DNA of 64,000 bases from Bordetella parapertussis (GTDB lineage Bacteria; Pseudomonadota; Gammaproteobacteria; Burkholderiales; Casimicrobiaceae), in assembly GCA_943331295.2 (NCBI GenBank), contig CALQLA020000004.1:62001-126000 (forward strand), read 5' to 3'. Under the pieces are notes generated by a model, which saw nothing but the letters and a program-made list of their open reading frames with translations, searched no databases and was not told the DNA's origin. Of the stretch, positions 2,785 through 59,254 are shown one piece after another. Made by a program: the position numbers and the translations under genes. Position 1 is the first letter of the stretch. Each line of letters opens with the position of its first letter.

Positions 2785-2846
2785 TGCCTGTTCCAGGCAT
2801 TGCCTCCCCGGCAACCGGTTGGATCACCGAACCCGAATCCGGTTGC
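2785..2846 (+). promoter_or_regulatory. tandem hairpins in the moaA 5' leader
   Basis: TGCCTG-ttc-CAGGCA (2785-2799) and GCAACCGG-N20-CCGGTTGC (2811-2846), just upstream of the moaA ATG at 2866. Confidence 0.4.
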
Positions 2847-2865
2847 GCCACGAACCGTCCTGCGC

Positions 2866-3963
2866 ATGGCCGTCACCATCCCCGTCGTCGACATCCGCAG
2901 CGCCGCCCGGCAGGACGCCGTGCTGCGCGACGCCGCACGCGCGCCGCGCGTGCCGGGCGTCGCCGTGACGGACACCCGCGGCCGGCGCCTCGCCGACCTG
3001 CGGATTTCCGTCACCGACCGCTGCAATTTCCGTTGCGTGTACTGCATGCCGAAGACCGTGTTCGGCCGCGACTACGCATTCCTGCCGCACGACGAGCTGC
3101 TGTCGTTCGAGGAGATCGCGCGCGTCGCCCGCGTGTTCGCCGCCGAGGGCGTGACGAAGATCCGGTTGACCGGCGGCGAGCCGCTGCTGCGCCGGAACAT
3201 CGAGCGGCTCATCGAGATGCTCGCGCCGATCCCCGGCATCGATCTCACGCTGACAACGAATGGCGCGCTGCTCGCGCGCAAGGCGGCCAGCCTCGCCGCC
3301 GCGGGCCTGAAGCGCGTCACGGTCAGCCTCGACTCGCTCGACGACGCGACGTTCCGGGCGATGAACGACGTCGACTTCCCGGTCGCGCGCGTGCTCGAAG
3401 GCATCGACGCCGCGGCGGCCGCGGGCCTCGTCCCGGTCAAGGTCAACATGGTGGTGAAGCGCGGCACCAACGACGCGAGCGTGGTGCCGATGGCCCGCCA
3501 CTTCAAGGGCAGCGGCCACATCCTGCGCTTCATCGAGTTCATGGACGTCGGCGCCACCAATGGCTGGCGGATGGACGACGTCGTGCCGGCCGCCGAGATC
3601 GTCGCGATGATCGGCGCCGAAATGCCGCTCGAGAGCATCGACCCCAACTACACCGGCGAGGTCGCGGAACGCTGGCGCTACCGTGACGGCGGCGGCGAGA
3701 TCGGCGTGATCGCCTCGGTCACGCAGGCGTTCTGCCGGGACTGCACGCGCGCCCGGCTTTCCACCGACGGCAAGCTCTACACCTGCCTGTTCGCGGGCTC
3801 CGGCTTCGACCTCCGGGCGCTGCTGCGCGGCGGCGCCGCGGACGAGCAGCTCGCCGACGCGATCGCGGCGGTGTGGCGGCAGCGCACCGACCGCTATTCG
3901 GAGACCCGCACCGCCAACACGGTGCGGGACCCGAAGGTCGAGATGAGCTACATCGGCGGCTGA
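2866..3963 (+). CDS. moaA: GTP 3',8-cyclase MoaA
   Basis: Radical SAM motif [11 protein letters not shown]-terminal [21 protein letters not shown], full-length ORF. Confidence 0.95.
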
Positions 3964-3990: not shown

Positions 3991-4842
3991 GTGAACGCAC
4001 CCGACCTCGCTTACCGCCCGCTGCTCACCGACGCCGCGCGTCCGTCGACGTTCTCGGTCCGCGCGATCGACGAGACCGGCGCGACGCGCGACACGCCGGT
4101 GGCCGGCGAGCATCCGCTGACGCTCTACGTCGACAAGCAGGAAGTGCTGACGCTGATGACGCTGGGCGGCGCGCCCGAGGCGCTGGCGCTGGGCTACCTG
4201 CGCAACCAGCGGCTGATCGAGCGGATCGAGGACATCGTCTCGGTGCAGGTCGACTGGGATGTCAACGCGGTCGTGGTCACGACGAAGGGCGGCCTCGCCA
4301 ACCTCGAGGCAAAGACCGCGAAGCGCACGCGCACCACCGGCTGCGGCCAGGGCACGATGTTCGGCGACCTGATGGACGACATCGACCGCGTGCGACTGCC
4401 CGCCGGCGCGACGCTCGCGCAAACCACGCTGTATGCGCTGCTCGACCGCGTCCGGCTGCACGAGACGATCTACAAGCAGGCGGGCGCCGTGCACGGTTGC
4501 GCGCTGGCCACCAACGATCCCGCAGATCCGGCCGGTGCGTCCGAGATCCTCATGTTCGTCGAGGACGTGGGCCGCCACAACGCGGTCGATGCGATCGCCG
4601 GCCGGATGTGGCTCGACCGCATCGACGGCGCGGACAAGATCTTCTACACCACCGGCCGGCTGACCTCCGAGATGGTGATCAAGGCGGCGCAGATGGGCAT
4701 CCCGTTCCTCGTCTCGCGCTCGGGCCTCACGCAGATGGGCTACGAGATCGCAGAGAAGGTCGGCATCACGATGATCGGCCGCGCGACGAACAAGCACTTC
4801 CTGCTGTTCACCGGCGCCGAACGCTTTCGTGCCGGAAGCTGA
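3991..4842 (+). CDS. fdhD: formate dehydrogenase accessory sulfurtransferase FdhD
   Basis: TGCGQGTMFGD, VEDVGRHNAVDAIAG and TGRLTSEMVIKAAQMGIPFLVSRS motifs; GTG start. Confidence 0.93.
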   Translation: MNAPDLAYRPLLTDAARPSTFSVRAIDETGATRDTPVAGEHPLTLYVDKQEVLTLMTLGGAPEALALGYLRNQRLIERIEDIVSVQVDWDVNAVVVTTKGGLANLEAKTAKRTRTTGCGQGTMFGDLMDDIDRVRLPAGATLAQTTLYALLDRVRLHETIYKQAGAVHGCALATNDPADPAGASEILMFVEDVGRHNAVDAIAGRMWLDRIDGADKIFYTTGRLTSEMVIKAAQMGIPFLVSRSGLTQMGYEIAEKVGITMIGRATNKHFLLFTGAERFRAGS

Positions 4843-5458
4843 ACCCACCGCGGGCGTCGCTTCCCCGCGCGACCGCGTCACCGGCATCGTGCTCGCCGGC
4901 GGGCAGGGCCGGCGGATGGGAGGCGTCGACAAGGGCCTGGTGCTGCTCGACGGCAAGCCGATGGTCGCGCACGTGCTGGCGCGACTGGCGCCGCAGGTCG
5001 CCGACGTGCTCGTCAACGCGAACCAGAACGGCGATCGCTACGCGGCGTTCGGGTACCCGGTGGTGCCCGACGCGGTCGGCGGGTTCGCGGGCCCGCTCGC
5101 CGGGCTGCACGCCGGGCTCGCCCGCGCGACCCGCGAATTCGCGGTCACGGTCCCCTGCGACTCGCCGTTCCTGCCGGCCGACCTCGTCGCGCGGCTCTTC
5201 GCCGCGTTCGCGACGCCGGCGGTGCAGCTCGCCGTCGCCCGCACCTTCGACCAGCCGCACCCGGTGTTCTGCCTCGTGCGCCGTGCGGTGCTGCCGCACC
5301 TCGCCGCCTTCCTCGCCGGCGGCGGCCGCAAGATCGACGCCTGGTATGCGACGCTCGGCGTGGTCGAGGTCGCGTTCGACGACGAGGCCGACGCGTTCCG
5401 CAACATCAACACCGCGGCCGAGCTGACCGAGGCGGGCCGCCCTGCCGGGCCGGCGTAG
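4829..5458 (+). CDS. mobA: molybdenum cofactor guanylyltransferase MobA
   Basis: GIVLAGGQGRRMGGVDKGL and PCDSPFLPADL; overlaps the fdhD end; GTG start. Confidence 0.92.
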   Translation: MPEAEPTAGVASPRDRVTGIVLAGGQGRRMGGVDKGLVLLDGKPMVAHVLARLAPQVADVLVNANQNGDRYAAFGYPVVPDAVGGFAGPLAGLHAGLARATREFAVTVPCDSPFLPADLVARLFAAFATPAVQLAVARTFDQPHPVFCLVRRAVLPHLAAFLAGGGRKIDAWYATLGVVEVAFDDEADAFRNINTAAELTEAGRPAGPA

Positions 5459-15527: not shown

Positions 15528-15557
15528 TGATCCGGCGGTACCCGGAACGTCGTACCC

Positions 15558-15663
15558 GTAGCCCGGGTTGAGCGACGGCGAAACCCGGGGGGATCGAGAC
15601 ACAGGCAACCTGGGGCCGGCGGGGCCGCCCACCCGGGTTTCGCGTTCGCTCAACCCGGGCTAC
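15558..15663. repeat. intergenic inverted repeat (family 2)
   Basis: GTAGCCCGGGTTGAGCGACGGCGAAACCCGGG / CCCGGGTTTCGCGTTCGCTCAACCCGGGCTAC, near-perfect 32-bp arms. Confidence 0.93.
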
Positions 15664-15676
15664 GCCCCAAGCCCTT

Positions 15677-43595: not shown

Positions 43596-45302
43596 TCATA
43601 GCTCCTCCGCCAGGATCATCTCGGTCAGGCCCTTGCCGCCGGGCACCATCGGGAACACGTTCTCCTTCTGGTCCGTGATGAAGTCCATGAACACGAGGCG
43701 CTCCTTCAGCTTGAAGGCCTCCTTCAGCGCGCCCTCGACGTCGCCGGGCTTCTCTATCTTCATGCCGACGTGGCCATAGGCCTCGGCGAGCTTCACGAAG
43801 TCCGGCAGCGCGTCCATGTACGACTCCGCATAGCGGTTGCCGTAGAAGAACTCCTGCCACTGCCGCACCATGCCCATGTAGCGGTTGTTGAGGTTCACGA
43901 TCTTGATCGGCAGGTGGTACTGCTTGCACGTCGACAGTTCCTGGATGCACATCTGGATCGACGCCTCGCCGGTCACGCACGCGACGGTCGCGCCCGGATT
44001 GACCATCTGCACGCCCATCGCCGCCGGCAGGCCGAAGCCCATCGTGCCGAGCCCGCCGGAGTTGATCCAGCGGCGGGGCTTGTCGAACTTGTAGTACTGC
44101 GCGGCCCACATCTGGTGCTGGCCCACGTCGGACGTGATGAACGCGTCGCCGCCGGTCAGCTCGTAGAGCTTCTCGATGACGGACTGCGGCTTGATCAGCG
44201 GGCTCTTGCGGTCGTAGCGCAGGCAGTCCGAGCGCTGCCATTCCTTGATCTCCGCCCACCACGCCTTCAGCGCCGCGGGATCGGGCCGCTGCGGGGACGA
44301 TTCGATCAGCTTCAGCATCTCGTCCAGCACGTCGGCGACATAGCCGACGATGGGCACGTCGACCTTCACGCGCTTCGAGATCGACGACGGGTCGATGTCG
44401 ATGTGGATGATCTTGCGGTCGCTGCGGTAGAAGTGCTCAGGGCTGCCGATCACGCGGTCGTCGAAGCGCGCGCCAATGGCGATCAGCACGTCGCAGTTCT
44501 GCATCGCCATGTTCGACTCGACGGTGCCGTGCATGCCGAGCATGCCGGTGAACTGCGGGTCGGTGCCCGGGAACGCGCCCAGCCCCATCAGCGTGTTGGT
44601 GCAGGGGAAGCCGAGCAGGCGCACAAGCCGGGTCAGCTGCGCCGACGCGTTGTTGAGGATCACCCCGCCGCCGGCGTAGACCATCGGCCGCTTGGCGTCG
44701 AGCAGCAGCTGGACGGCCTTCTTGATCTGGCCGGGGTGGCCTTTCGTCACCGGGTTGTACGAGCGCAGCGAAATCGTCTTCGGGTAGTTGAACTCGGTCG
44801 ACGCCTGCGTCACGTCCTTGGGAATGTCGACCAGCACCGGACCCGGGCGCCCGCTCGCCGCGAGGTAGAACGCCTTCTTGATCGTGACCGCGAGGTCCTT
44901 CACGTCCTTGACCAGGAAGTTGTGCTTGACGCAGGGCCGCGTGATGCCGACCGTGTCGCACTCCTGGAAGGCGTCCTGGCCGATCGCGTGCGTCGGCACC
45001 TGGCCGGTCAGCACGACCATCGGGATCGAGTCCATGTACGCGGTCGCGATGCCGGTCACCGCGTTGGTGACCCCCGGACCCGACGTGACGAGGCAGACGC
45101 CGGTCTTGTGGCTGGAGCGCGAGTAGCCGTCGGCCGCGTGGACCGCGCCCTGCTCGTGCCGGACCAGGACGTGCTTGACCTTCTCCTGCTTGAAGAATTC
45201 GTCGTAGATGTTCAGCACTGCGCCGCCCGGATAGCCGAAGACGTACTCGACGCCTTCCTCTCCCAGGCAGCGGATGACGATTTCTGCACCCGTGAGTTGC
45301 AT
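43596..45302 (-). CDS. ilvB: acetolactate synthase large subunit
   Basis: MQLTGAEIVIRCLGEEGVEYVFGYPGGAVLNIYDEFF, ThDP motif GEASIQMCIQELSTCKQYHLPIKIVNLNN. Confidence 0.96.
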   Translation of the reverse strand: MQLTGAEIVIRCLGEEGVEYVFGYPGGAVLNIYDEFFKQEKVKHVLVRHEQGAVHAADGYSRSSHKTGVCLVTSGPGVTNAVTGIATAYMDSIPMVVLTGQVPTHAIGQDAFQECDTVGITRPCVKHNFLVKDVKDLAVTIKKAFYLAASGRPGPVLVDIPKDVTQASTEFNYPKTISLRSYNPVTKGHPGQIKKAVQLLLDAKRPMVYAGGGVILNNASAQLTRLVRLLGFPCTNTLMGLGAFPGTDPQFTGMLGMHGTVESNMAMQNCDVLIAIGARFDDRVIGSPEHFYRSDRKIIHIDIDPSSISKRVKVDVPIVGYVADVLDEMLKLIESSPQRPDPAALKAWWAEIKEWQRSDCLRYDRKSPLIKPQSVIEKLYELTGGDAFITSDVGQHQMWAAQYYKFDKPRRWINSGGLGTMGFGLPAAMGVQMVNPGATVACVTGEASIQMCIQELSTCKQYHLPIKIVNLNNRYMGMVRQWQEFFYGNRYAESYMDALPDFVKLAEAYGHVGMKIEKPGDVEGALKEAFKLKERLVFMDFITDQKENVFPMVPGGKGLTEMILAEEL

Positions 45303-49357: not shown

Positions 49358-49422
49358 TGGATTCTGGGCACCATGACGGGAAGAGGGATTATAACGGTGC
49401 GTGGCATGCGCTGCCCGGGGCC

Positions 49423-49511
49423 GCAGCCCGGGTTGGGCGCGAGCGAAACCCGGGTGGACCGTGCCCGTTCGCAAATCACCGCGGGTTTCGCTGCCGCTCG
49501 ACCCGGGCTAC
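49423..49511. repeat. intergenic inverted repeat (family 2, diverged copy)
   Basis: GCAGCCCGGGTTGGGCGCGAGCGAAACCCGGG ... GCGGGTTTCGCTGCCGCTCGACCCGGGCTAC. Confidence 0.88.
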
Positions 49512-49543
49512 CCAGCGTGACGGGGGAGGCGCGGTGCGCATCC

Positions 49544-50611
49544 TCAGGCCTGGGAGAGATACGTCTCGCCGTAGCCGACGTAGGCCGCGCAGCCGCTGGC
49601 GAACATCTCGCGCTCGACCGGCCGCACGGCGCGGAACGCGCGCGCCGGCCGCCCGGCCCAGATCCAGCCCGCATCGACGACGGTGCCCGGCTCGACCAGC
49701 GACCGCGCGCCGATGCAGCCGCCGGGCAGGACGACGACGCCGTCGCCCACCTGGGCGCCCATGCCGACCAGGGCGTCGTCATGGATCGTCGCCGCGCCCA
49801 TCCGCACGTTGTGGCCGATGGTCACCCCGGCGCCCAGCACGAGCGGCCCGCGCGCCGCGTCCGTGACGAAGAGGCAGTTGTCCTGCACGTTCGTGCGCGG
49901 GCCGATGACGATGCGACCATCGCCCGCGATCACCGCGCACGCGAAATAGACGCCGGCGTCGTCGGCGATCTCGACGTCGCCGGCGACGAGCGCCGTCGGC
50001 GCGACGTAGGCCCGCGCGACACGCGGCATGACGCCGCCGATCGGATGCAGCCCGTGGTGCCCGCCGAGAGCGGCGGCATAGGACGCCATGTCGAGCGGCG
50101 GCAGGTCGGCGTCGAGGATCTCCGGCAGCGGCGCGCCGGCGCGGATCGACGCCGCCGCCGCGGCAAGCTCGTCCGCCTCGATCCGGCGCACGGCGACCGC
50201 AGGATTGCCGGCGTAGACGAAGCCGCCCGGCAGCTGCTTGAACGGCGCCACGAGGCTCCCGGCCGCAATGAGCGAACCGTCACCGACGCTCGCGCCGTCC
50301 ATCACGACGGCGTTGTCGCCGACGACGACACGGCTGCCCAGCGTGCAGGCATGGACCAGCGCGAAGCGGCCCACCGTCACGTCGTCGCCCATCGCGGCGC
50401 CGAGCCGGCGATCGGCGATGTGCACTGTCGCGCGCTCGGCGAAGAAGGCGTTGGCGCCGATGCGGATCCACTCGCCGTCGGCGCGGACCGTCGCGTAGCC
50501 GCGCAGCGTGAGCCCGGGTCCGGCGACGGTGCGGCCGACGATCGCCGCCATCGGGGCGCAGTCTACCGGCGCCGCGAGCACGGGCGTGAATTCGGCAAAG
50601 GGAAGCAGCAC
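49544..50611 (-). CDS. left-handed beta-helix hexapeptide-repeat protein (gamma-carbonic anhydrase-like), tandem two-domain
   Basis: Two hexapeptide blocks: IRIGANAFFAERATVHI..VTVGRFALVHACTLGSRVVVGDNAVV and YVAPTALVAGDVEIADDAGVYFACAVIAGDGRIVIGPRTNVQDNCLF..VTIGHNVRMGAATIHDDALVGMGAQV. Start uncertain. Confidence 0.8.
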   Translation of the reverse strand: MLLPFAEFTPVLAAPVDCAPMAAIVGRTVAGPGLTLRGYATVRADGEWIRIGANAFFAERATVHIADRRLGAAMGDDVTVGRFALVHACTLGSRVVVGDNAVVMDGASVGDGSLIAAGSLVAPFKQLPGGFVYAGNPAVAVRRIEADELAAAAASIRAGAPLPEILDADLPPLDMASYAAALGGHHGLHPIGGVMPRVARAYVAPTALVAGDVEIADDAGVYFACAVIAGDGRIVIGPRTNVQDNCLFVTDAARGPLVLGAGVTIGHNVRMGAATIHDDALVGMGAQVGDGVVVLPGGCIGARSLVEPGTVVDAGWIWAGRPARAFRAVRPVEREMFASGCAAYVGYGETYLSQA

Positions 50612-50765: not shown

Positions 50766-51431
50766 ATGGAATCCCTCCAACCCCAGCAGACCATGGTCGA
50801 GCAGGCCTACGGCGCGATCCTCGACGCCATCTGCGAAGGCCGGCTCGAGCCCGGCGAGCGGCTGACGCAGGAGGGCATCGCGCAGAAGCTGCAGGTGTCG
50901 CGACAGCCGGTCGGGCAGGCGCTCCTGCTGCTGAAGCAGCAGCGCTTCCTCGTCGAGGCCGGCCGGCGCGGCCTGATGGTCGCGCCGCTCGACCGCGAGT
51001 TCATGCGCTGGATCTACGAGCTGCGCCTCGGCATCGAGCCGCTCGCGGCCGGGCTCGCCGCGCGCAACGCCACGCCGGCGGACATCGAGCGCGGCACCGC
51101 TCTGGTGGCGACGGGCCAGCGCGCGGTCCGCGCCGGCTCGATCGGGGAGCTCATCGCCGCCGACATGGCGTTCCACATGTACCTCTACGAGATCTCGGGC
51201 AACGGCCTCTTCGTCGACACGATGCGCGAGCTCTGGAACCACCTGCGCCGAGCGATGCGCGAGGTGCTGCAACACCGCGAGTACCGGAAGACGATCTGGG
51301 TCGAGCATGAGCAGATCCTGCGCGCGATCGCCGGGCACGACGCGGACGGCGCCGCGGCGCTCGTCCGCGCGCACCTGTCGAACGCCGCGATCAACGTGCA
51401 GGTGCGTCTGCCGGTGCCCGCAACACCGTAG
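50766..51431 (+). CDS. GntR family transcriptional regulator (FCD subfamily)
   Basis: ILDAICEGRLEPGERLTQEGIAQKLQVSRQPVGQALLLLKQQRFLV; FCD C-terminal domain. Confidence 0.9.
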   Translation: MESLQPQQTMVEQAYGAILDAICEGRLEPGERLTQEGIAQKLQVSRQPVGQALLLLKQQRFLVEAGRRGLMVAPLDREFMRWIYELRLGIEPLAAGLAARNATPADIERGTALVATGQRAVRAGSIGELIAADMAFHMYLYEISGNGLFVDTMRELWNHLRRAMREVLQHREYRKTIWVEHEQILRAIAGHDADGAAALVRAHLSNAAINVQVRLPVPATP

Positions 51432-51534
51432 CCCGGGTTGAGCGAGAGCGAAACCCGGGTGGGCGTGGCAACAGCGACGTCCGCGCCCCGTTCGGCAACC
51501 ACCCGGGTTTCGCCTCGCGGCTCAACCCGGGCTA
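51428..51534. repeat. intergenic inverted repeat (family 2) containing both convergent stop codons
   Basis: GTAGCCCGGGTTGAGCGAGAGCGAAACCCGGG ... CCCGGGTTTCGCCTCGCGGCTCAACCCGGGCTAC; TAG at 51429-51431 (+) and 51534-51532 (-). Confidence 0.95.
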
Positions 51535-53247
51535 CGTCCCCTCGCGCCAGCGGCGCTCCGCGTCGTCCCACGCGGCGAGCGGCTGCAGGTCGGGCACCCA
51601 CGCGAGGCCGCTTTTCGCGTCGGACGACACCGCATCCGGCGTGACCACGACGTCGAGCAGCGCCGGTCGCGCGGCGAGCGCGCGATCGATCGCGGCCGGC
51701 AGGTCCTCGGCGCGCGTGACGCGCTCGGCGTGCATGCCGAAGGCCCGCGCCATCGCCGCGTGGTCGGCGAACTGCAGCCGCGTGCCGACCACCCTGCCGT
51801 GCGTTTCCCGCTGGTCGTGCACCTCGATCTGCCAGGCGCCGTTGTTCGCGACGACGATCAGCACCGGGGCGCGGTGGCGCACCGCCGTGTCGACCTCCAT
51901 CGCGTTGAAGCCGAACGCGCCGTCGCCGGTGGCCACCGCGACGACGCGGTCCGGGCACGCGAGGCTGGCCGCGATGCCGAACGGCGTGCCGACGCCGATG
52001 CAGCCCAGCGTGCCGGGATCGAGCCACGTCGTCGCGGACAGGCCCGCCCGCGCGAAGCTGAGGAAGTCGCCTCCGTCGGCAACCACGATGGCGTCCGCGG
52101 GCAGGCGGTCCTGCAGGCAGGCCAGCAGCCGGTTCGGATGGATGCGCCCCTCCCCGTCCGACGGCGCCGCGCGCATCGACGCGCGGAGCTTCTGCACGCG
52201 CGACTCGTGCGCCTCGCGCAGCCCGCGGGCCCAATCGCGATCGACCGCGGGAACGCGCTCGACCGCCGCGGCGATGATCGCCTCCAGCGCGGCGCCGCAG
52301 TCGGCCAGGATCTCGACGTCGCCGCGACGATTGTCGCGAAGCTCCCCCGGCGTGTCGGCGATCCGCACGAAGCGGGCGTCCCCGAACACCGCGGGCGACC
52401 CGTAGGCGAGCTGGAAATCGAGCCGGCGCCCGAGTGTCAGCACCAGGTCCGCCTGCTGCATCACGGCGCCGCGCATCGCCGCCACGACCGACGGATGGCT
52501 GTCGGGAACGAGGCCGCGGCTCTCGCCGGTGTCGAGGTAGGCCGCGCCCAGCCGGTCCAGCAGCCGGAGAAGCGCCGGGCCCGCGCCGCGCGCACCGCGG
52601 CCGCTGATCACGAGCGGCCGGCGCGCCGACCACAGGCATTCGACCGCCGCCGCCACGCGTGCCGCATCGGGCGGGGTCAGCTGCCGCGGCTTGGCGCGCA
52701 GGTGCTCGTCGCGCTGCAGCGCCGAGGGCACCCGGTCGCGCAGCGTGTCGGTCGGGAAGTCGAGGTAGGACGGCCCGGGCTCGCCGCCCTCGCCCAGCGC
52801 GCGGGCGACGGCCTCGTCGAGCTCGCGCAGCACCTGCGAGGCTTCGCGCACGGTGCGCGCATAGCGCGTGATCGGGCGCACGAGGTCGGTGTGCACGATG
52901 TCCTGCAGCGCGCCGCGGTTCTCCTGCTCCCGCGGCGGCACGCCCGAGAGCACCAGCACGGGTGCCCGCGCCACGTGCGCATTGGCGATGCCGGTCATCG
53001 CGTTGGTGACGCCGGGGCCGGCGGTGACCAGCGCGACGCCGATGCGGCCGGTCAGCTCGCCGTAGGCGTGCGCCATGTAGACGGCCGCGCGCTCGTCGCG
53101 CACGTCGACGATCGCGATGCCCTCCGCGTCGAGGCGCATCCAGACCGGCATGATGTGCCCGCCGCAGAGGCCGAACACGCGGTCGACGCCGCGCGCCTTC
53201 AGGAAGCGGGCGATGAGTCCCGCGGTCGAGTCGGCGGAGATCGTCAT
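51532..53247 (-). CDS. thiamine diphosphate-dependent enzyme, ILVBL/HACL2-like (candidate 2-hydroxyacyl-CoA lyase)
   Basis: RVFGLCGGHIMPVWMRLDAEGIAIVDVRDERAAVYMAHAYGELTGRIGVALVTAGPGVTNAMTGIANA...QENRGALQDI; ThDP motif GDGAFGFNAMEVDTAVRHRAPVLIVVANN. Confidence 0.75.
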   Translation of the reverse strand: MTISADSTAGLIARFLKARGVDRVFGLCGGHIMPVWMRLDAEGIAIVDVRDERAAVYMAHAYGELTGRIGVALVTAGPGVTNAMTGIANAHVARAPVLVLSGVPPREQENRGALQDIVHTDLVRPITRYARTVREASQVLRELDEAVARALGEGGEPGPSYLDFPTDTLRDRVPSALQRDEHLRAKPRQLTPPDAARVAAAVECLWSARRPLVISGRGARGAGPALLRLLDRLGAAYLDTGESRGLVPDSHPSVVAAMRGAVMQQADLVLTLGRRLDFQLAYGSPAVFGDARFVRIADTPGELRDNRRGDVEILADCGAALEAIIAAAVERVPAVDRDWARGLREAHESRVQKLRASMRAAPSDGEGRIHPNRLLACLQDRLPADAIVVADGGDFLSFARAGLSATTWLDPGTLGCIGVGTPFGIAASLACPDRVVAVATGDGAFGFNAMEVDTAVRHRAPVLIVVANNGAWQIEVHDQRETHGRVVGTRLQFADHAAMARAFGMHAERVTRAEDLPAAIDRALAARPALLDVVVTPDAVSSDAKSGLAWVPDLQPLAAWDDAERRWREGT

Positions 53248-53278: not shown

Positions 53279-54961
53279 TCAGAACACCGGCGTCTCGCGA
53301 TACGTGCCCCAGAGCTTCTTGAGGCGCTCGATGATGTCGCCGGTCGTGGCGCCCGCCGCCACCAGCTCGATGGTGATCGGCATGATGTTCTGCGTCTCGT
53401 CCTTCGCCACCTCGACCAGGCGGTCGAGCAGCGCCTCGAGCTTCGCGTTGTCGCGCTCGCGGCGCACGCGCTGCAGCCGGTCGATCTGGCGGGTGGCGGT
53501 CGTCGCGTCGTACGGATGCAGTTCGATGTCGAACTTCTCGTCCTTCTCGACGTAGCGGTTGACGCCGATCACCGGCTTCTCGCCGCTGGCCTTGCGCAGC
53601 GCGGTCTGGTAGGCGAAGTCGGCGATCCGGCGCTGGAACCAGCTCTCGGCAGTCATCTTGATGGTGCCCCCGCCCTTGTCGACCTCGTCGATGATCGCGA
53701 AGATCGCCCGCTCGTAGTCGGTGGTGAGGCTTTCCAGGAAATACGAGCCGCCCAGCGGGTCGACGACGTTGGCCACGCCGCTCTCGTCGGCGACGATCTG
53801 CTGCGTGCGCAGCGCGATCTTCATCGCCTCCTCGGTCGGGATCGCGAACGCCTCGTCCATGCCGTTGGTGTGCAGGCTCTGCGCGCCGCCCAGCACCGCC
53901 GCCAGCGCCTGCAGCCCCGTGCGCACGACGTTGATCTGGTACTGCGGCTTGGTGAGCGAGGCGGCGGCGGTCTGGCAGTGGAAGCGCAGCCGCATCGACT
54001 CCGGGTTCTTCGCGCCGAAGCGCTCCTTCATGATCTTGGCGTACACGCGGCGCACCGCGCGGAACTTCGCGATCTCCTCGAAGAAATCGGCCTGGCAGAC
54101 GAAGAAGAACGCGAGCCGAGGCGCGAACTCGTCGACGTGCATCCCGGTCTTGGTCACCTCCTCGACGTACGTGATCAGGTTGCACATCGTGAACGCCACC
54201 TCGTCCACCGGCGAGCTGCCCGCCTCCGAGATGTGGTAGCCCGAGATGTTGATCGGGTTGTAGCGCTTCATGTTGCGCGCGCAGTAGGTGATGCAGTCGC
54301 GGACGATCCGCACCGACGGCGCGATCGGGTAGATCCATTCCTTCTGCGACTGGTATTCCTTGAGGATGTCGGCCTGGATCGTGCCGGAGAGCCTGTTCAG
54401 GTCGTAGCCCTTCTTCTGCGCCAGCGCCACGTACATCGCGAGCAGGATCCACGCGCTCGGGTTGATCGTCATCGACACCGAGATCTTCTCGAGGTCGATG
54501 CCGTCGAACAGGTGCTCCATGTCGGCGAGCGTGTCGATCGCGACGCCCTCGCGGCCGACCTCGCCCTCGCTCATCGCGTGGTCGCTGTCGTAGCCCATCA
54601 GCGTGGGCATGTCGAAGTCGGTGGACAGGCCCGTCTGGCCCTGCGCGATCAGGTACTTGAACCGCTGGTTGGTGTCCTCGGCGGTGCCGAAGCCGGCGAT
54701 CTGCCGCATCGTCCACGTCCGGCCGCGGTACATCGTTGGGTAGGGCCCGCGCGTGAACGGGTACTGTCCCGGCAGGCCGATGTCCTCGATCGGCGTATCG
54801 GCCAGGTCGAGCGCGGTGTACGTGCGCTTGACCGGGAATCCGCCCAGCGTGGTGAACTCCGCCTGCCGCTCCGGCGCGCGCGCGACGAACTTCGCGACTT
54901 CGTCCTGCTCCCACGCCGCCACCTGCGCGGCCAGCTCGCGTTGCGTCTTCGGATCGATCAT
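53279..54961 (-). CDS. hcmA: B12-dependent acyl-CoA mutase large subunit, candidate 2-hydroxyisobutyryl-CoA mutase HcmA
   Basis: MCM-fold YPFTRGPYPTMYRGRTWTMRQIAGFGTAEDTNQRFKYLIAQGQTGLSTDFDMPTLMGYDSDHA; Ile and Asp 27 residues apart at the positions that distinguish HCM (Ile90/Asp117) from MCM (Tyr89). No B12 domain. Confidence 0.7.
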   Translation of the reverse strand: MIDPKTQRELAAQVAAWEQDEVAKFVARAPERQAEFTTLGGFPVKRTYTALDLADTPIEDIGLPGQYPFTRGPYPTMYRGRTWTMRQIAGFGTAEDTNQRFKYLIAQGQTGLSTDFDMPTLMGYDSDHAMSEGEVGREGVAIDTLADMEHLFDGIDLEKISVSMTINPSAWILLAMYVALAQKKGYDLNRLSGTIQADILKEYQSQKEWIYPIAPSVRIVRDCITYCARNMKRYNPINISGYHISEAGSSPVDEVAFTMCNLITYVEEVTKTGMHVDEFAPRLAFFFVCQADFFEEIAKFRAVRRVYAKIMKERFGAKNPESMRLRFHCQTAAASLTKPQYQINVVRTGLQALAAVLGGAQSLHTNGMDEAFAIPTEEAMKIALRTQQIVADESGVANVVDPLGGSYFLESLTTDYERAIFAIIDEVDKGGGTIKMTAESWFQRRIADFAYQTALRKASGEKPVIGVNRYVEKDEKFDIELHPYDATTATRQIDRLQRVRRERDNAKLEALLDRLVEVAKDETQNIMPITIELVAAGATTGDIIERLKKLWGTYRETPVF

Positions 54962-55947
54962 GACTCTCCTCCAAGATTGAGTTCGCGCAGGAGCTGTATG
55001 GCCGCGGTGTGCGGCGACAGCGTCCTCGCGTCGAGTTGTTCCAGCAGCGCCGACACCTTGCCGTTCCGGTGCCGCGCGAATTGGTCGCGCAGGATTTCCT
55101 CCCCCGCCTTGAACAGGCGCCGTTCCGCGATCAGCGCGCGGCGGGTGGCGATCTCGCCGCTCGCGGCGAGCGCCTCGCGGTGGCCGTCGATCGCGGCGAC
55201 GAGCTCGCCGATGCCCTCGCTCCGGGCCGAGCTGGTGGCGATCACGGGCGCGCGCCACGCCGGCGCCGATCCGAAGCCTTCCGCCCCCGGGCGCCCGAGC
55301 CCCATCGCCAGCATGTTCTTGAGGTCGGCGATGGTCCGGTTCGCATCGGCCCGGTCGCACTTGCTGACGACGTGGATGTCCGCGATCTCGAGGATGCCCG
55401 CCTTGATCGCCTGGATGTCGTCGCCCAGGCCCGGTGCCGACACGACGACCGTGGTGTGCGCCGCGCGGACGATGTCGACTTCGTCCTGCCCCACGCCCAC
55501 CGTCTCGATCATCACCACGTCGTAGCCCGCGGCGTCGAGCACGTCGACCACTTCCAGCGCGCCGCGCGCGAGGCCGCCCAGCGCGCCTCGCGTGGCCATG
55601 CTGCGCACGTAGACGCCGGGGTCGCCGCCGAGTTCGCCCATGCGGATGCGGTCGCCCAGGATCGCGCCGCCGGAGAACGGGCTCGACGGGTCGATCGCGA
55701 CGATGGCGACGCGCCGGCCGGTGCGCCGGATCGCCGCCGCGAGCAGCGCGACCAGCGTCGACTTGCCGCTGCCGGGGACGCCGGTGACGCCGACGACGTG
55801 CGCGCGCCCGGCGCGGCGGAAGATCTCGTCGAGCGCGGGCCGTGCCTCGGGCGTGCCGTTCTCGGCGCGCGTGGCGAGCCGCGCGACGGCGCGCACGTTG
55901 CCCGCGGTCACGCCGGCGACGAGGTCCCCCGACGGTACGTAGGCCAT
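54958..55947 (-). CDS. MeaB/ArgK-type G-protein chaperone of B12 mutase
   Basis: VVGVTGVPGSGKSTLVALL, VAIVAIDPSSPFSGGAILGDRIRM, ETVGVGQDEVDI. Confidence 0.92.
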   Translation of the reverse strand: MAYVPSGDLVAGVTAGNVRAVARLATRAENGTPEARPALDEIFRRAGRAHVVGVTGVPGSGKSTLVALLAAAIRRTGRRVAIVAIDPSSPFSGGAILGDRIRMGELGGDPGVYVRSMATRGALGGLARGALEVVDVLDAAGYDVVMIETVGVGQDEVDIVRAAHTTVVVSAPGLGDDIQAIKAGILEIADIHVVSKCDRADANRTIADLKNMLAMGLGRPGAEGFGSAPAWRAPVIATSSARSEGIGELVAAIDGHREALAASGEIATRRALIAERRLFKAGEEILRDQFARHRNGKVSALLEQLDARTLSPHTAAIQLLRELNLGGES

Positions 55948-57386
55948 CAGGCCGCGCCGCCGTCCGCGTCGAGGCGGCGGTTCATCTCGCGGAAGACCTC
56001 GCGGTCGTCGACCACGCGCTTGGCCTTGAAGTCGGTGCGCGGGAACGTGCCGGGCGCAACGACCTCGACCTTCGCCCGCAGCCCGAGCATCTTCTGCAGC
56101 GCCTTCGACGTGTCGTCGCGCAGCGCGCGCAGCGACGCGTCGCCGCCCGCCTGCACCGGCGCCGCGGCCTCGATGCGGACCAGGAGCTCGTCCATCGCGC
56201 CATCGCGCGAAATGACGATCCGGTGCTCGCCGCCGTAGCCTTCGAGCCTGTTCATCACGGCGTCGACTTCGCTCGGATAGACGTTCTCGCCGCGGATCGT
56301 GAACATGTCGTCGATGCGCCCGAACACGCCCTGCGGCAGCCGGGGATACGTGCGCCCGCAGGGATTGGGGCCGTTCTCCCACAGCGTCAGGTCGCCCGAC
56401 ATCAGCCGGATCATCGGCTGCGACGTGCGCTCGAGGTGCGTGTAGACGGGCGTCCCGCGCTGGCCGTAGGGCACGCGGTGGTAGGTCTGCGGATCGCAGA
56501 CCTCGGTGTAGATGATGTCCTGCCAGCAGAGCATGCCGTCGGTCTCGGCGGTGCCGGCGACGTTCATGAACGGCGTCATCTCGGCCATCGAGCCGCAGTC
56601 GATCACGCGGGCTCCGTACGCGGCGGCGATGCGATCGCGGACGCCGGGCACCGAGGCGCCGGGCTCGCCGGAGAAGAACATCGTCTTCAGGCCGAAGGCG
56701 CGCGGGTCGTAGCCTTCCGCGACGGCGACCTCGGCCAGGTGCAGCGCGAACGACGGCGTGCCGTAGAACGCGGTCGGCTTCATCGCGTCGAGCCACATCG
56801 CGGCGCGCGCCGTCATGCCCGGGGCGCCGGCGCCGAACGGGAAGGCCTTGGTGTGCAGCCGCTCGGCGCCGGACAGCGTGCCCCACGAGCCCATGTAGAG
56901 GCTGAAGATCGCCGCGATGAACACCGTGTCGCCGGGGCGTATGCCCATCCCCCACATGATCCGCGCATGCGCGTTGGCGATGGCGTCCCAGTCCGCGCGC
57001 CCGATGCCGAACGACGTCGGGCGGCCCGTCGTGCCCGACGTGCCGTGGATGTGGTGGATCTCGCTTTCCGGCACGCAGAGGTAGTCGCCGAACGGGGGCG
57101 TCCTCGCCTGCGCGTCGCGGAGGTCCTTCTTCGAGATCACCGGCACTCGCGCCTCGAAATCCTCGAGCGAGCGCAGCTGGTCGGGGTGGAAGCCCGCGTC
57201 CTCCCACTTGCGGCGGTAGAACGGCGCGTGCTCCCACGCGTGGCGGGTGACTTCCTTCAGGCGCTCGAGGATCGCGCGCTCGCGATCGGCGGCGGGCATC
57301 GTCTCGCGCTTGGGGAACCAGTAGCGCGAGCCCGCCGTCGGCAGGTAGGCGGCGTCGTAGCGCGGGGGAAAGGTCCAGGATTCCAT
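55947..57386 (-). CDS. PaaK-like AMP-forming acyl-CoA ligase, candidate 2-hydroxyisobutyrate-CoA ligase
   Basis: HHIHGTSGTTGRPTSFGI, GRIDDMFTIRGENVYPSEVDAVM; 479 aa; encoded inside the mutase operon. Confidence 0.75.
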   Translation of the reverse strand: MESWTFPPRYDAAYLPTAGSRYWFPKRETMPAADRERAILERLKEVTRHAWEHAPFYRRKWEDAGFHPDQLRSLEDFEARVPVISKKDLRDAQARTPPFGDYLCVPESEIHHIHGTSGTTGRPTSFGIGRADWDAIANAHARIMWGMGIRPGDTVFIAAIFSLYMGSWGTLSGAERLHTKAFPFGAGAPGMTARAAMWLDAMKPTAFYGTPSFALHLAEVAVAEGYDPRAFGLKTMFFSGEPGASVPGVRDRIAAAYGARVIDCGSMAEMTPFMNVAGTAETDGMLCWQDIIYTEVCDPQTYHRVPYGQRGTPVYTHLERTSQPMIRLMSGDLTLWENGPNPCGRTYPRLPQGVFGRIDDMFTIRGENVYPSEVDAVMNRLEGYGGEHRIVISRDGAMDELLVRIEAAAPVQAGGDASLRALRDDTSKALQKMLGLRAKVEVVAPGTFPRTDFKAKRVVDDREVFREMNRRLDADGGAA

Positions 57387-57407: not shown

Positions 57408-57824
57408 TCAGCGCGGACCGCGCTCGGCGACGGCCCGGCGCACCATTGCGACGATGGCGTCCGGCGGCGTGTCCTGCAGCATGATCTCCTTCACGCCCAT
57501 CGCCTTCAGTTCGACGACGTCGGGGTCGGGGATCACGCCGCCGCCCACGACCAGGATGTCGGTGGCGTCGCGCTCCTTCAGGAGCCTCAGGATCTTCGGG
57601 AACACGGTCATGTGCGCGCCGGACAGGATGCTGATGCCGATGACGTCGACATCCTCCTGCACGGCAGCGTCGATCACCTCTTCGGGCGTGCGGTGGAGTC
57701 CGGTGTAGATGACGTCCATGCCGGCGTCGCGCAGCGTCCGGGCGACGATCTTCACCCCGCGGTCGTGGCCGTCGAGGCCGACCTTGGCGATGAGCACGCG
57801 AATGGGTGCTTCGGGGTTGTCCAC
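57408..57824 (-). CDS. hcmB: B12-binding small subunit of acyl-CoA mutase (HcmB-like)
   Basis: VLIAKVGLDGHDRGVKIVARTLRDAGMDVIYTGLH (DxHxxG), DVIGISILSGAHMTVFPKIL. Confidence 0.8.
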   Translation of the reverse strand: MDNPEAPIRVLIAKVGLDGHDRGVKIVARTLRDAGMDVIYTGLHRTPEEVIDAAVQEDVDVIGISILSGAHMTVFPKILRLLKERDATDILVVGGGVIPDPDVVELKAMGVKEIMLQDTPPDAIVAMVRRAVAERGPR

Positions 57825-57890: not shown

Positions 57891-57928
57891 ATACGGTATA
57901 CAGTATGCGATAACAAAATCCGTGTCAA
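57891..57928 (-). promoter_or_regulatory. promoter of the mutase operon with overlapping GntR-type operator
   Basis: On the minus strand TTGACA (57928-57923)-N17-TACTGT (57905-57900); the -10 lies inside ATACTGTATACCGTAT, two overlapping ATACnGTAT palindromes. Confidence 0.6.
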
Positions 57929-58022: not shown

Positions 58023-59183
58023 TCAGTGCAGGCTGTCGGCCTCGCTGTCCGCCTTGAACAGCAGGACGAGGCCCGTCCCGGGATCGCGGTCGGCGTGGAC
58101 ACCGGAACGGACGCGAACGTCGGCGACGCGACATTCGCGCAGGAGGTCCGTCAGCATCGCGACGACGTCGGCGACGCGGTCCTGCAGGTAGAGCGGGCAG
58201 CGGAAGCCCTCGGCGTCGCGCGGCTCGAACGGCGACGACAGCGACAGCCGGATCTCCCCGCCGTGCGGCGCATCCGGCGTCCGGTGCGCGCTGATGACGG
58301 CCGTGGGCTCGCCGACGCTCGCGCGGAGCTTCCGCACGGCATTGCTGACGAAGACGTGAGCGCTGGCTTCGCGCTGCGCGAGGCGCCCGTGCAGCACGGC
58401 CGGCAACAGCCAGTCGGGTGCCCGCGGCATCGCGAGCACCGAAGCACCGTGCCGCGCGAGTTCCTGGCTCAGCATCCGGGTGAACGGCACGCCCCACTTG
58501 CCGACGGTGCGTCCGGCAAGGAGGTCGAGCCCGGGTCTGGCCAGCGCGGTGCCGACGAGAAAGCGCAGGCCGACGGTCTCGTGCCCCGCCGCGAGCGGCA
58601 TCGGCGCCGGCGCCAGCACGCGCGCGGGCATCGGCGCACTGGCGGAATCGGGCAGTCGCTGCCACGCCAGGATTTCGGGCAGGCGGCCGACGTCGATCGC
58701 GTCGGCGCCGACGAGCGCGTCGGCCAGGCCGAAGTTCTCGTTGCCCGCCAGCGCGCCGTGCTCGCGCAGCAGCGCGGCCAGCGCCTCCGGCGCGGCAAGG
58801 GTTCCGGCAAGCGGCCCCGCCGCGGCGCCGCCTTCGGCGCCGGCGACGATGACGATCGGGATCGCGAACGTCGTGATCGCGACTCCGGGCCCGGCGGCGA
58901 GCGACGCGTCCCGCCACGCGCGGTCGAGCGTCCGCCAGAGCTGGCGCGCGACCGCCACCGACGGCACACCCCGGAACACCGCCGCGAGGCCTGCGCCCTC
59001 GCCTTCGAGCCGCGCCGACAGCGCGGCGCCGAGGTCGCGGCCGAGAGCATCGGCCTGCACGCCCGTATGCGCGGCAAGGCTGCTCTCCGCGAGGCGATGG
59101 AGCGCGGCAATGTCCGCGGGAACGTCGCACGGCTCGGGAAACGTGCGCGGATCGGCGAGTGCGGCGGCGATGTCAGCGTTCAT
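58023..59183 (-). CDS. conserved hypothetical protein
   Basis: Long ORF MNADIAAALADPRTFPEPCDVPADIAAL..., 386 aa; no recognised motif. Confidence 0.6.
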   Translation of the reverse strand: MNADIAAALADPRTFPEPCDVPADIAALHRLAESSLAAHTGVQADALGRDLGAALSARLEGEGAGLAAVFRGVPSVAVARQLWRTLDRAWRDASLAAGPGVAITTFAIPIVIVAGAEGGAAAGPLAGTLAAPEALAALLREHGALAGNENFGLADALVGADAIDVGRLPEILAWQRLPDSASAPMPARVLAPAPMPLAAGHETVGLRFLVGTALARPGLDLLAGRTVGKWGVPFTRMLSQELARHGASVLAMPRAPDWLLPAVLHGRLAQREASAHVFVSNAVRKLRASVGEPTAVISAHRTPDAPHGGEIRLSLSSPFEPRDAEGFRCPLYLQDRVADVVAMLTDLLRECRVADVRVRSGVHADRDPGTGLVLLFKADSEADSLH

Positions 59184-59254
59184 CCGGTCGATTTTCGCAT
59201 GCGCGCGGGGGGACCGCCACGGGATGCGATAATCCGGCACGCGCGTGCCCGACC

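Follow-up and report, generated by a model that had tools for sequence, protein, structure and literature searches.

The 64,000-nucleotide stretch of DNA analysed here (the window) carries on its minus strand, at 51532..53247, a gene predicted to encode a ThDP-dependent 2-hydroxyacyl-CoA (2-hydroxyisobutyryl-CoA) lyase of the AcHACL type, standing at the end of an operon for 2-hydroxyisobutyryl-CoA mutase (HCM). We consider it probable that the mutase and the lyase are alternative exits from one intermediate. 2-Hydroxyisobutyrate (2-HIBA) is a branched acid that can arise, among other sources, from the fuel additive MTBE, and the mutase route has been published for Aquincola tertiaricarbonis. 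In the proposed scheme, 2-hydroxyisobutyrate-CoA ligase (HCL) would activate 2-HIBA to its CoA ester; the B12-dependent mutase would convert 2-hydroxyisobutyryl-CoA to 3-hydroxybutyryl-CoA with all carbon kept, and the lyase would cleave the same ester to acetone and formyl-CoA with no need for B12. The identity of the lyase, the genuine HCM operon and the conserved, recurrent pairing of the two make this putative second exit well supported as an encoded capacity. That both exits run in one cell, and for what reason, we only infer.

Family assignment of the lyase

The reading frame proposed in an earlier, sequence-only reading holds: it opens with ATG at 53247, closes with a stop codon ending at 51532, encodes 571 amino acids and contains the motifs that had been quoted from it. 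The plus-strand translation across this stretch is likewise open, the usual shadow frame of GC-rich DNA. The protein carries the Pfam domains TPP_enzyme_N/M/C of a three-domain ThDP enzyme (decarboxylase/ligase superfamily). In a comparison with all solved structures its top match was AcHACL (PDB 7pt1) with 635 bits; the HACS/oxalyl-CoA decarboxylase group came next at 246 bits, and typical acetolactate synthases scored 154-163 bits. The NCBIfam equivalog NF058623.1 scored 838.7 bits (cut-off 600), and the alignment with AcHACL gave 56% identity.

In AcHACL, E65 is the ThDP-activating glutamate and E493 the glutamate that protonates the C2alpha carbanion (PMC8760513, PMC13327070); the E493 position is occupied by Val or Ile in acetolactate synthases, glyoxylate carboligase and pyruvate oxidase (PMC13327070). 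Both glutamates are unchanged in the window protein (E52 and E475 in its own numbering), together with AcHACL positions T88, R107, L127, Q128, R230, E256, R288, D312, E316 and I492 (L127, Q128 and I492 being L114, Q115 and I474). Also kept are the residues that, according to the published work, occupy the ADP site of AcHACL, and the sole change among the 15 AcHACL positions inspected is that of the active-site Q41 to C28. The C-terminal lid (AcHACL residues 556-590) has its counterpart in SSDAKSGLAWVPDLQPLAAWDDAERRWR, which aligns to it. On the strength of the 7pt1 and NF058623 scores, the conserved catalytic residues and the lid, we filed the protein as an AcHACL-type lyase, which would act on short tertiary-branched substrates by the reaction that we infer from its characterised homologues.

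The sequence-only reading had taken the protein for a HACL-like enzyme and not an acetolactate synthase. Its assignment to the 2-hydroxyacyl-CoA lyases stood, but the structure scores, NF058623 and the residue alignment replace the suggested affiliation with HACL2 (ILVBL) by one with the short-chain, lid-bearing AcHACL. Human HACL2, compared here by description only, has the ThDP lyase superfamily in common with the window protein, and its Glu-bearing helix is said to be conserved, but it is reported to act on long chains and to end in a short C-terminus without the lid (PMC8760513) that the window protein has.

It is highly improbable that the gene encodes an acetolactate synthase, or a 2-oxoacid decarboxylase/carboligase, unrelated to the mutase pathway. 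Such an enzyme would belong to the same ThDP superfamily, and comparable genes carry no annotation beyond 'thiamine pyrophosphate-binding protein'; however, every other listed NCBIfam model (ALS/OXC/POX) stayed far below its own cut-off, as seen for acetolactate synthase (TIGR00118, 243.8 versus 538), AlsS (TIGR02418, 200 versus 551) and oxalyl-CoA decarboxylase (TIGR03254, 243.9 versus 739.4). Identity is 27% to the window's own IlvB and 29% to the genome's own, separate Oxc, the catalytic Glu and the lid are AcHACL-like, and the operon context is conserved. With the profiles under their cut-offs and Glu at the E493 position, we rejected both an acetolactate synthase and an oxalyl-CoA decarboxylase identity. 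A true ilvB does lie elsewhere in the window, as had been stated, at 43596 to about 45300 (NF005409, 1061.9 bits, cut-off 1035).

The mutase operon

The lyase gene directly follows a genuine 2-hydroxyisobutyryl-CoA mutase operon on the same strand, in agreement with the initial proposal. The neighbouring hcmA (53279..54961, minus strand, ATG at 54961 after GGAGGAG), for the large mutase subunit, matches the A. tertiaricarbonis HCM structure (PDB 4r3u) with 1012 bits, against 453 bits or less for methylmalonyl-CoA mutases. In the alignment to 4R3U, the motifs RQIAGFG and STDFDMPT are identical, and Ile90 and Asp117, which we take to be the residues marking HCM, are retained. It is preceded, all on the minus strand, by a gene for a meaB/meaH-type G-protein chaperone of the mutase (54958..55947; TIGR00750, 329.6 bits, above cut-off), by hcl for the ligase (55947..57386; PDB 6hdw, 855 bits versus 236 or less for phenylacetate-CoA ligases (PaaK)) and by hcmB for the B12-binding small subunit, with a GTG start (57408..57824; TIGR00640, 150.5 bits, above cut-off). 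Overlaps of a few bases join hcl to meaB and meaB to hcmA, and a gap of 31 nt separates hcmA from the lyase gene, whose start has no obvious Shine-Dalgarno sequence. A terminator scan of the operon gave one terminator-like match, inside the hcmA coding sequence, with a total count near chance. Judged by strand and short gaps, the lyase gene is most likely the last gene of a predicted operon hcmB-hcl-meaB-hcmA-lyase.

Upstream of hcmB lies a 405-aa ORF (58026-59240, minus strand) with no Pfam or NCBIfam match; homologues at 44-54% occupy the equivalent position in related genomes (L020, L022, L100, L102).

A tandem gamma-carbonic-anhydrase-like hexapeptide protein is encoded at 49544..50605 (minus strand), with gntR standing between its gene and that of the lyase. 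It is a regular member of HCM operons, adjoining the lyase gene or hcmA in most of them (also in L018, L020, L022, L024, L112, L117 and L118), and the literature examined gave no role for it there. As the gene often follows that of the lyase, we considered a lyase-linked formyl-CoA hydrolase; the idea was dropped because the gene is also found in lyase-less HCM operons (Xanthobacter Py2, Agrobacterium, L105).

Regulator and flanking repeats

A GntR/FCD regulator (Pfam GntR and FCD) is encoded convergently with the lyase on the plus strand at 50769..51431; the listed ORF starts at 50508 and the conserved protein at about 50769. A homologue adjoins most HCM operons. The 16-nt palindrome ATACTGTATACCGTAT at 57891..57906, ~67 nt upstream of the hcmB start and downstream of a TTGACA box, is a putative GntR/FCD operator: the pattern ATWCNGTATACNGWAT matches the window only once, at this place, and gave 0 matches in 100 shuffles. 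Sites with a GTATAC core were present upstream of hcmB at 15 of 23 Burkholderiales HCM loci, some of them near-identical and not all independent; the core itself has a background frequency of 0.07 per kb. An operator shared with the lyase modules that have no mutase (described below) was rejected, the GTATAC palindrome not being found upstream of those modules.

The 3' ends of the lyase gene and gntR are separated by a long inverted repeat (51425..51536; -71.1 kcal/mol, z -6.0), which is probably a terminator common to both. An inverted repeat with arms CTCAACCCGGGCTACG is dispersed over three places in the window (15557-15664, 49422-49512 and, between the lyase gene and gntR, 51427-51536); the arms have 6 matches versus 0.02 expected, and the repeat resembles a REP/BIME element.

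Conservation of the lyase-mutase pairing

HcmA was found in 17 of the 64 genomes of the window's bacterial family. Among the 16 family HCM operons with an assessable contig, 15 have the lyase gene near hcmA, on the same strand and within about 3 kb; the operon of genome G809 is the one without it. Of 398 genomes sampled from the order, HcmA is encoded in 12, the lyase in 33 and both in 10, so that the lyase is present in 10 of 12 HCM genomes versus 33 of 398 overall (hypergeometric p about 2e-10, relatedness uncorrected). At the genus level it is found in six of eight HCM genera (p 2e-6, again uncorrected for relatedness). The proposed pairing is thus conserved in other genomes and withstands the survey.

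The coupling is not obligatory. In 7 of the 10 order genomes with both genes, the two occupy separate loci; some HCM operons, such as L105, no longer have the lyase gene, and an eroded remnant is seen (L146; G546, a further HCM genome with the remnant beside its operon). In the 399 genomes sampled from the phylum, the lyase was present in three and HcmA in six, and both only in the window's own genome. Further afield, haloarchaeal plasmids of Natrinema zhouii and Halomarina sp. carry the order lyase-ligase-mutase-B12 subunit-MeaB, and Xanthobacter Py2 and Agrobacterium deltaense have an HCM operon without the lyase.

Two further observations concern single lineages. Genome G031 has apparently two different lyases on two short contigs (L021, L103), which may reflect a real duplication or a mixed assembly. 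In a genus with small genomes (~1.9 Mb; L142, L148, L149), the HCM operon has no hcl, and the lyase sits elsewhere with a ligase of its own (in G649 on the same contig); having lost hcl, these operons must draw 2-hydroxyisobutyryl-CoA from another source.

Phylogeny of the lyase

In a maximum-likelihood tree of 52 proteins, with the bootstrap not settled and the outgroup distant, the window lyase clusters with other HCM-operon lyases, including that of Methylibium petroleiphilum PM1 (support 98/85). In three operons of the window's family the lyase comes from the part of the tree that holds AcHACL, and the haloarchaeal pair branches separately. Two distinct lyase lineages fill the operon slot within one family. 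At least 3-4 changes between the mutase-linked and the unlinked state are needed on the tree, and a single clade of bacterial HCM-linked lyases was rejected (AU p 7e-50, with the same unsettled bootstrap and distant outgroup). We read this as recurrent recruitment of the lyase into mutase operons, or its replacement in situ, which would argue for function.

The tree also bears on a possible passenger role, in which the lyase would be co-transcribed with the operon and yet be physiologically unimportant; we regard this as very unlikely. Its loss or erosion in the HCM operons L105 and L146 would fit a passenger, but two lyase lineages occupy the operons of one family, the pairing recurs in PM1 and in haloarchaea, and the active sites are intact in every aligned lyase copy.

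Lyase modules without the mutase

The closest relatives of the window lyase in the order (70-79%) are encoded in compact modules of a GntR regulator, a FadD-like acyl-CoA ligase and the lyase, with no HCM. Such modules are widespread in the order (L015, L073-L099, L113, L114), and transporters or a PQQ alcohol dehydrogenase are often encoded close by. They are similar to the ligase-lyase clusters published for actinobacteria, from which they differ in the ligase family. Because these close relatives sit with a different, FadD-like ligase, the lyase family is not tied to HCL.

These mutase-free relatives would speak for a division of substrates between the two enzymes, the mutase taking the C4 2-hydroxyisobutyryl-CoA and the lyase mainly another tertiary 2-hydroxyacyl-CoA that the one ligase also makes. 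The C5 ester 2-hydroxy-2-methylbutyryl-CoA is an example, and would yield butanone and formyl-CoA. In nature, such substrates would be supplied by the plant cyanogenic pair linamarin/lotaustralin. The kinetics of AcHACL lean the same way, with a kcat/KM of 17 for C5 and 11 for C4 per s per mM (PMC13327070). However, the ligase of the window operon is of the HCL type, and the size-limiting L127/I492 and the lid are as in AcHACL, which uses both substrates, and we hold such a split to be unlikely. Two exits from 2-hydroxyisobutyryl-CoA itself are the reading that we prefer.

Fate of the products and cofactor supply

If the lyase operates as a second exit, formyl-CoA and formate could in principle be consumed, since the genome encodes a formyl-CoA transferase (frc, 745 bits) and a formate dehydrogenase (FDH; alpha subunit, 766 bits), which form a cluster with Oxc on another contig. 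The sequence-only reading had pointed instead to formate dehydrogenase accessory genes within the window. These genes are real (MoaA, 2800-3963; FdhD, 3991-4842; MobA, 4829-5458), but they lie about 47 kb from the lyase gene, with no meaningful linkage to it, and with FDH itself found elsewhere beside oxc-frc we rejected them as part of the lyase system. Just left of the window (L026; G000 contig 4, 59145-60569), a further gene matches the FDH alpha model and contains one in-frame TAG; it is possibly a pseudogene or an assembly error, and an intact FDH is present on contig 6.

An acetone-degrading enzyme was not identified with the profiles for the acetone carboxylase gamma subunit (PF08882) and the binuclear monooxygenase (PF02332), a result that is uninformative because the controls were silent too. 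2-HIBA supports growth of Methylibium T29, whereas acetone does not (PMC4517660), and so the flux through the lyase may be minor, or acetone may be excreted.

We also considered, as a tentative and rather unlikely explanation, that the fork depends on cofactor supply: bacteria unable to make cobalamin would keep the B12-independent lyase, transcribed together with the mutase genes, as a bypass, and scarcity of B12 would direct flux to acetone and formyl-CoA. CobQ was present in none of the 27 HCM-bearing Burkholderiales genomes examined and in four of five lyase-less HCM genomes of other orders, a contrast that would fit such a bypass but is confounded by taxonomy, as three lyase-less HCM genomes of the order are also without CobQ. 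PM1 is reported to have a cobalamin-synthesis operon (PMC4517660).

Comparison with known systems

Among the closest known arrangements is the 2-HIBA cluster on plasmid RPME01 of M. petroleiphilum PM1 (MPE_RS22120-RS22170), which shares with the window gntR, hcmB-hcl-meaB-hcmA, the lyase and the gamma-carbonic anhydrase. Its order is gntR, then hcmB-hcl-meaB-hcmA-hyp-ATR-lyase-gammaCA-ATR-3-hydroxybutyryl-CoA dehydrogenase; it differs from the window in that hcmA and the lyase gene are separated by two others, one small and hypothetical and one for a cobalamin adenosyltransferase (ATR), and in the second ATR and the dehydrogenase that come after. The PM1 lyase (WP_011831867.1), about 65% to the window lyase, is annotated only as a thiamine pyrophosphate-binding protein. 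The HcmAB/HCL operon of A. tertiaricarbonis L108 (4R3U, 6HDW), compared by its published descriptions and the two structures, resembles that of the window in HcmA, HCL, the MeaB-type chaperone and the GntR regulator, and the lyase goes unmentioned in its accessible published descriptions.

AcHACL itself (Actinomycetospora chiangmaiensis DSM 45062, PDB 7PT1, WP_018331913.1) is, like the window lyase, encoded with an HCL gene, and the two proteins are alike in the catalytic Glu pair, Q128, L127/I492, the residues filling the ADP site and the C-terminal lid; the Actinomycetospora genome has no mutase (PMC7176365), whereas the window lyase ends a mutase operon. In Mycolicibacterium sp. ELW1, the gene for a ThDP lyase (D3H54_RS30180) shares ibc cluster 2 with those for a ligase, a mutase and a chaperone (PMC13188929); likened here by published description, the cluster differs in being a 37-kb, multi-operon, actinobacterial one.

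In the acetone pathway of Desulfococcus biacutus and Desulfosarcina cetonica, as in the window, a ThDP enzyme is found with a 2-hydroxyisobutyryl-CoA mutase; that pathway differs in its proposed synthesis direction, in having no HCL, in its RcmAB-like mutase and in a ThDP enzyme only 22% identical to AcHACL (PMC7176365, PMC7888143). By analogy, lyase and mutase could act in series, the lyase running in reverse to join acetone and formyl-CoA into 2-hydroxyisobutyryl-CoA, which the mutase would pass on as 3-hydroxybutyryl-CoA, so that acetone is assimilated. The reversibility of the AcHACL reaction (PMC8760513), the proposal of just such an enzyme pair for acetone in those two bacteria (PMC7888143) and the persistence of the lyase elsewhere in the genomes where the HCM operon has lost hcl (L142, L148, L149) are consistent with this direction. 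Nevertheless, the window operon keeps hcl, which acetone assimilation would not need, wild-type AcHACL has a high KM for carbonyl acceptors (37 mM for acetol; PMC13327070), and the Desulfococcus enzyme is distant from AcHACL; we judge the reverse direction quite unlikely, and retain parallel exits from the one CoA ester as the favoured reading.

Novelty and implications

The sequence-only reading had suggested a previously undescribed two-branch pathway, which is too strong. Work from 2020-2021 already covers the AcHACL enzyme, the reaction that it catalyses and the pairing of ligase with lyase (PMC7176365, PMC8760513), and a 2026 paper on ELW1 suggested the lyase near the mutase genes as a possible minor 2-HIBA route (PMC13188929). 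In the open-access literature (subscription papers being outside the search), we found no description of the compact HCM-lyase operon in Burkholderiales, of the PM1 lyase or of the recurrence of the pairing. What we describe is a new arrangement of known enzymes, and it is real and conserved.

M. petroleiphilum PM1 is a model MTBE degrader, and if both exits operate, the textbook mutase-only route for MTBE and 2-HIBA would be incomplete in this organism. Acetone and formate would then be expected as side products, controlled by the supply of B12. The short-chain lyases 70-81% identical to that of the window may also be useful leads for one-carbon carboligation and for a bio-based supply of 2-HIBA, a precursor of methyl methacrylate.
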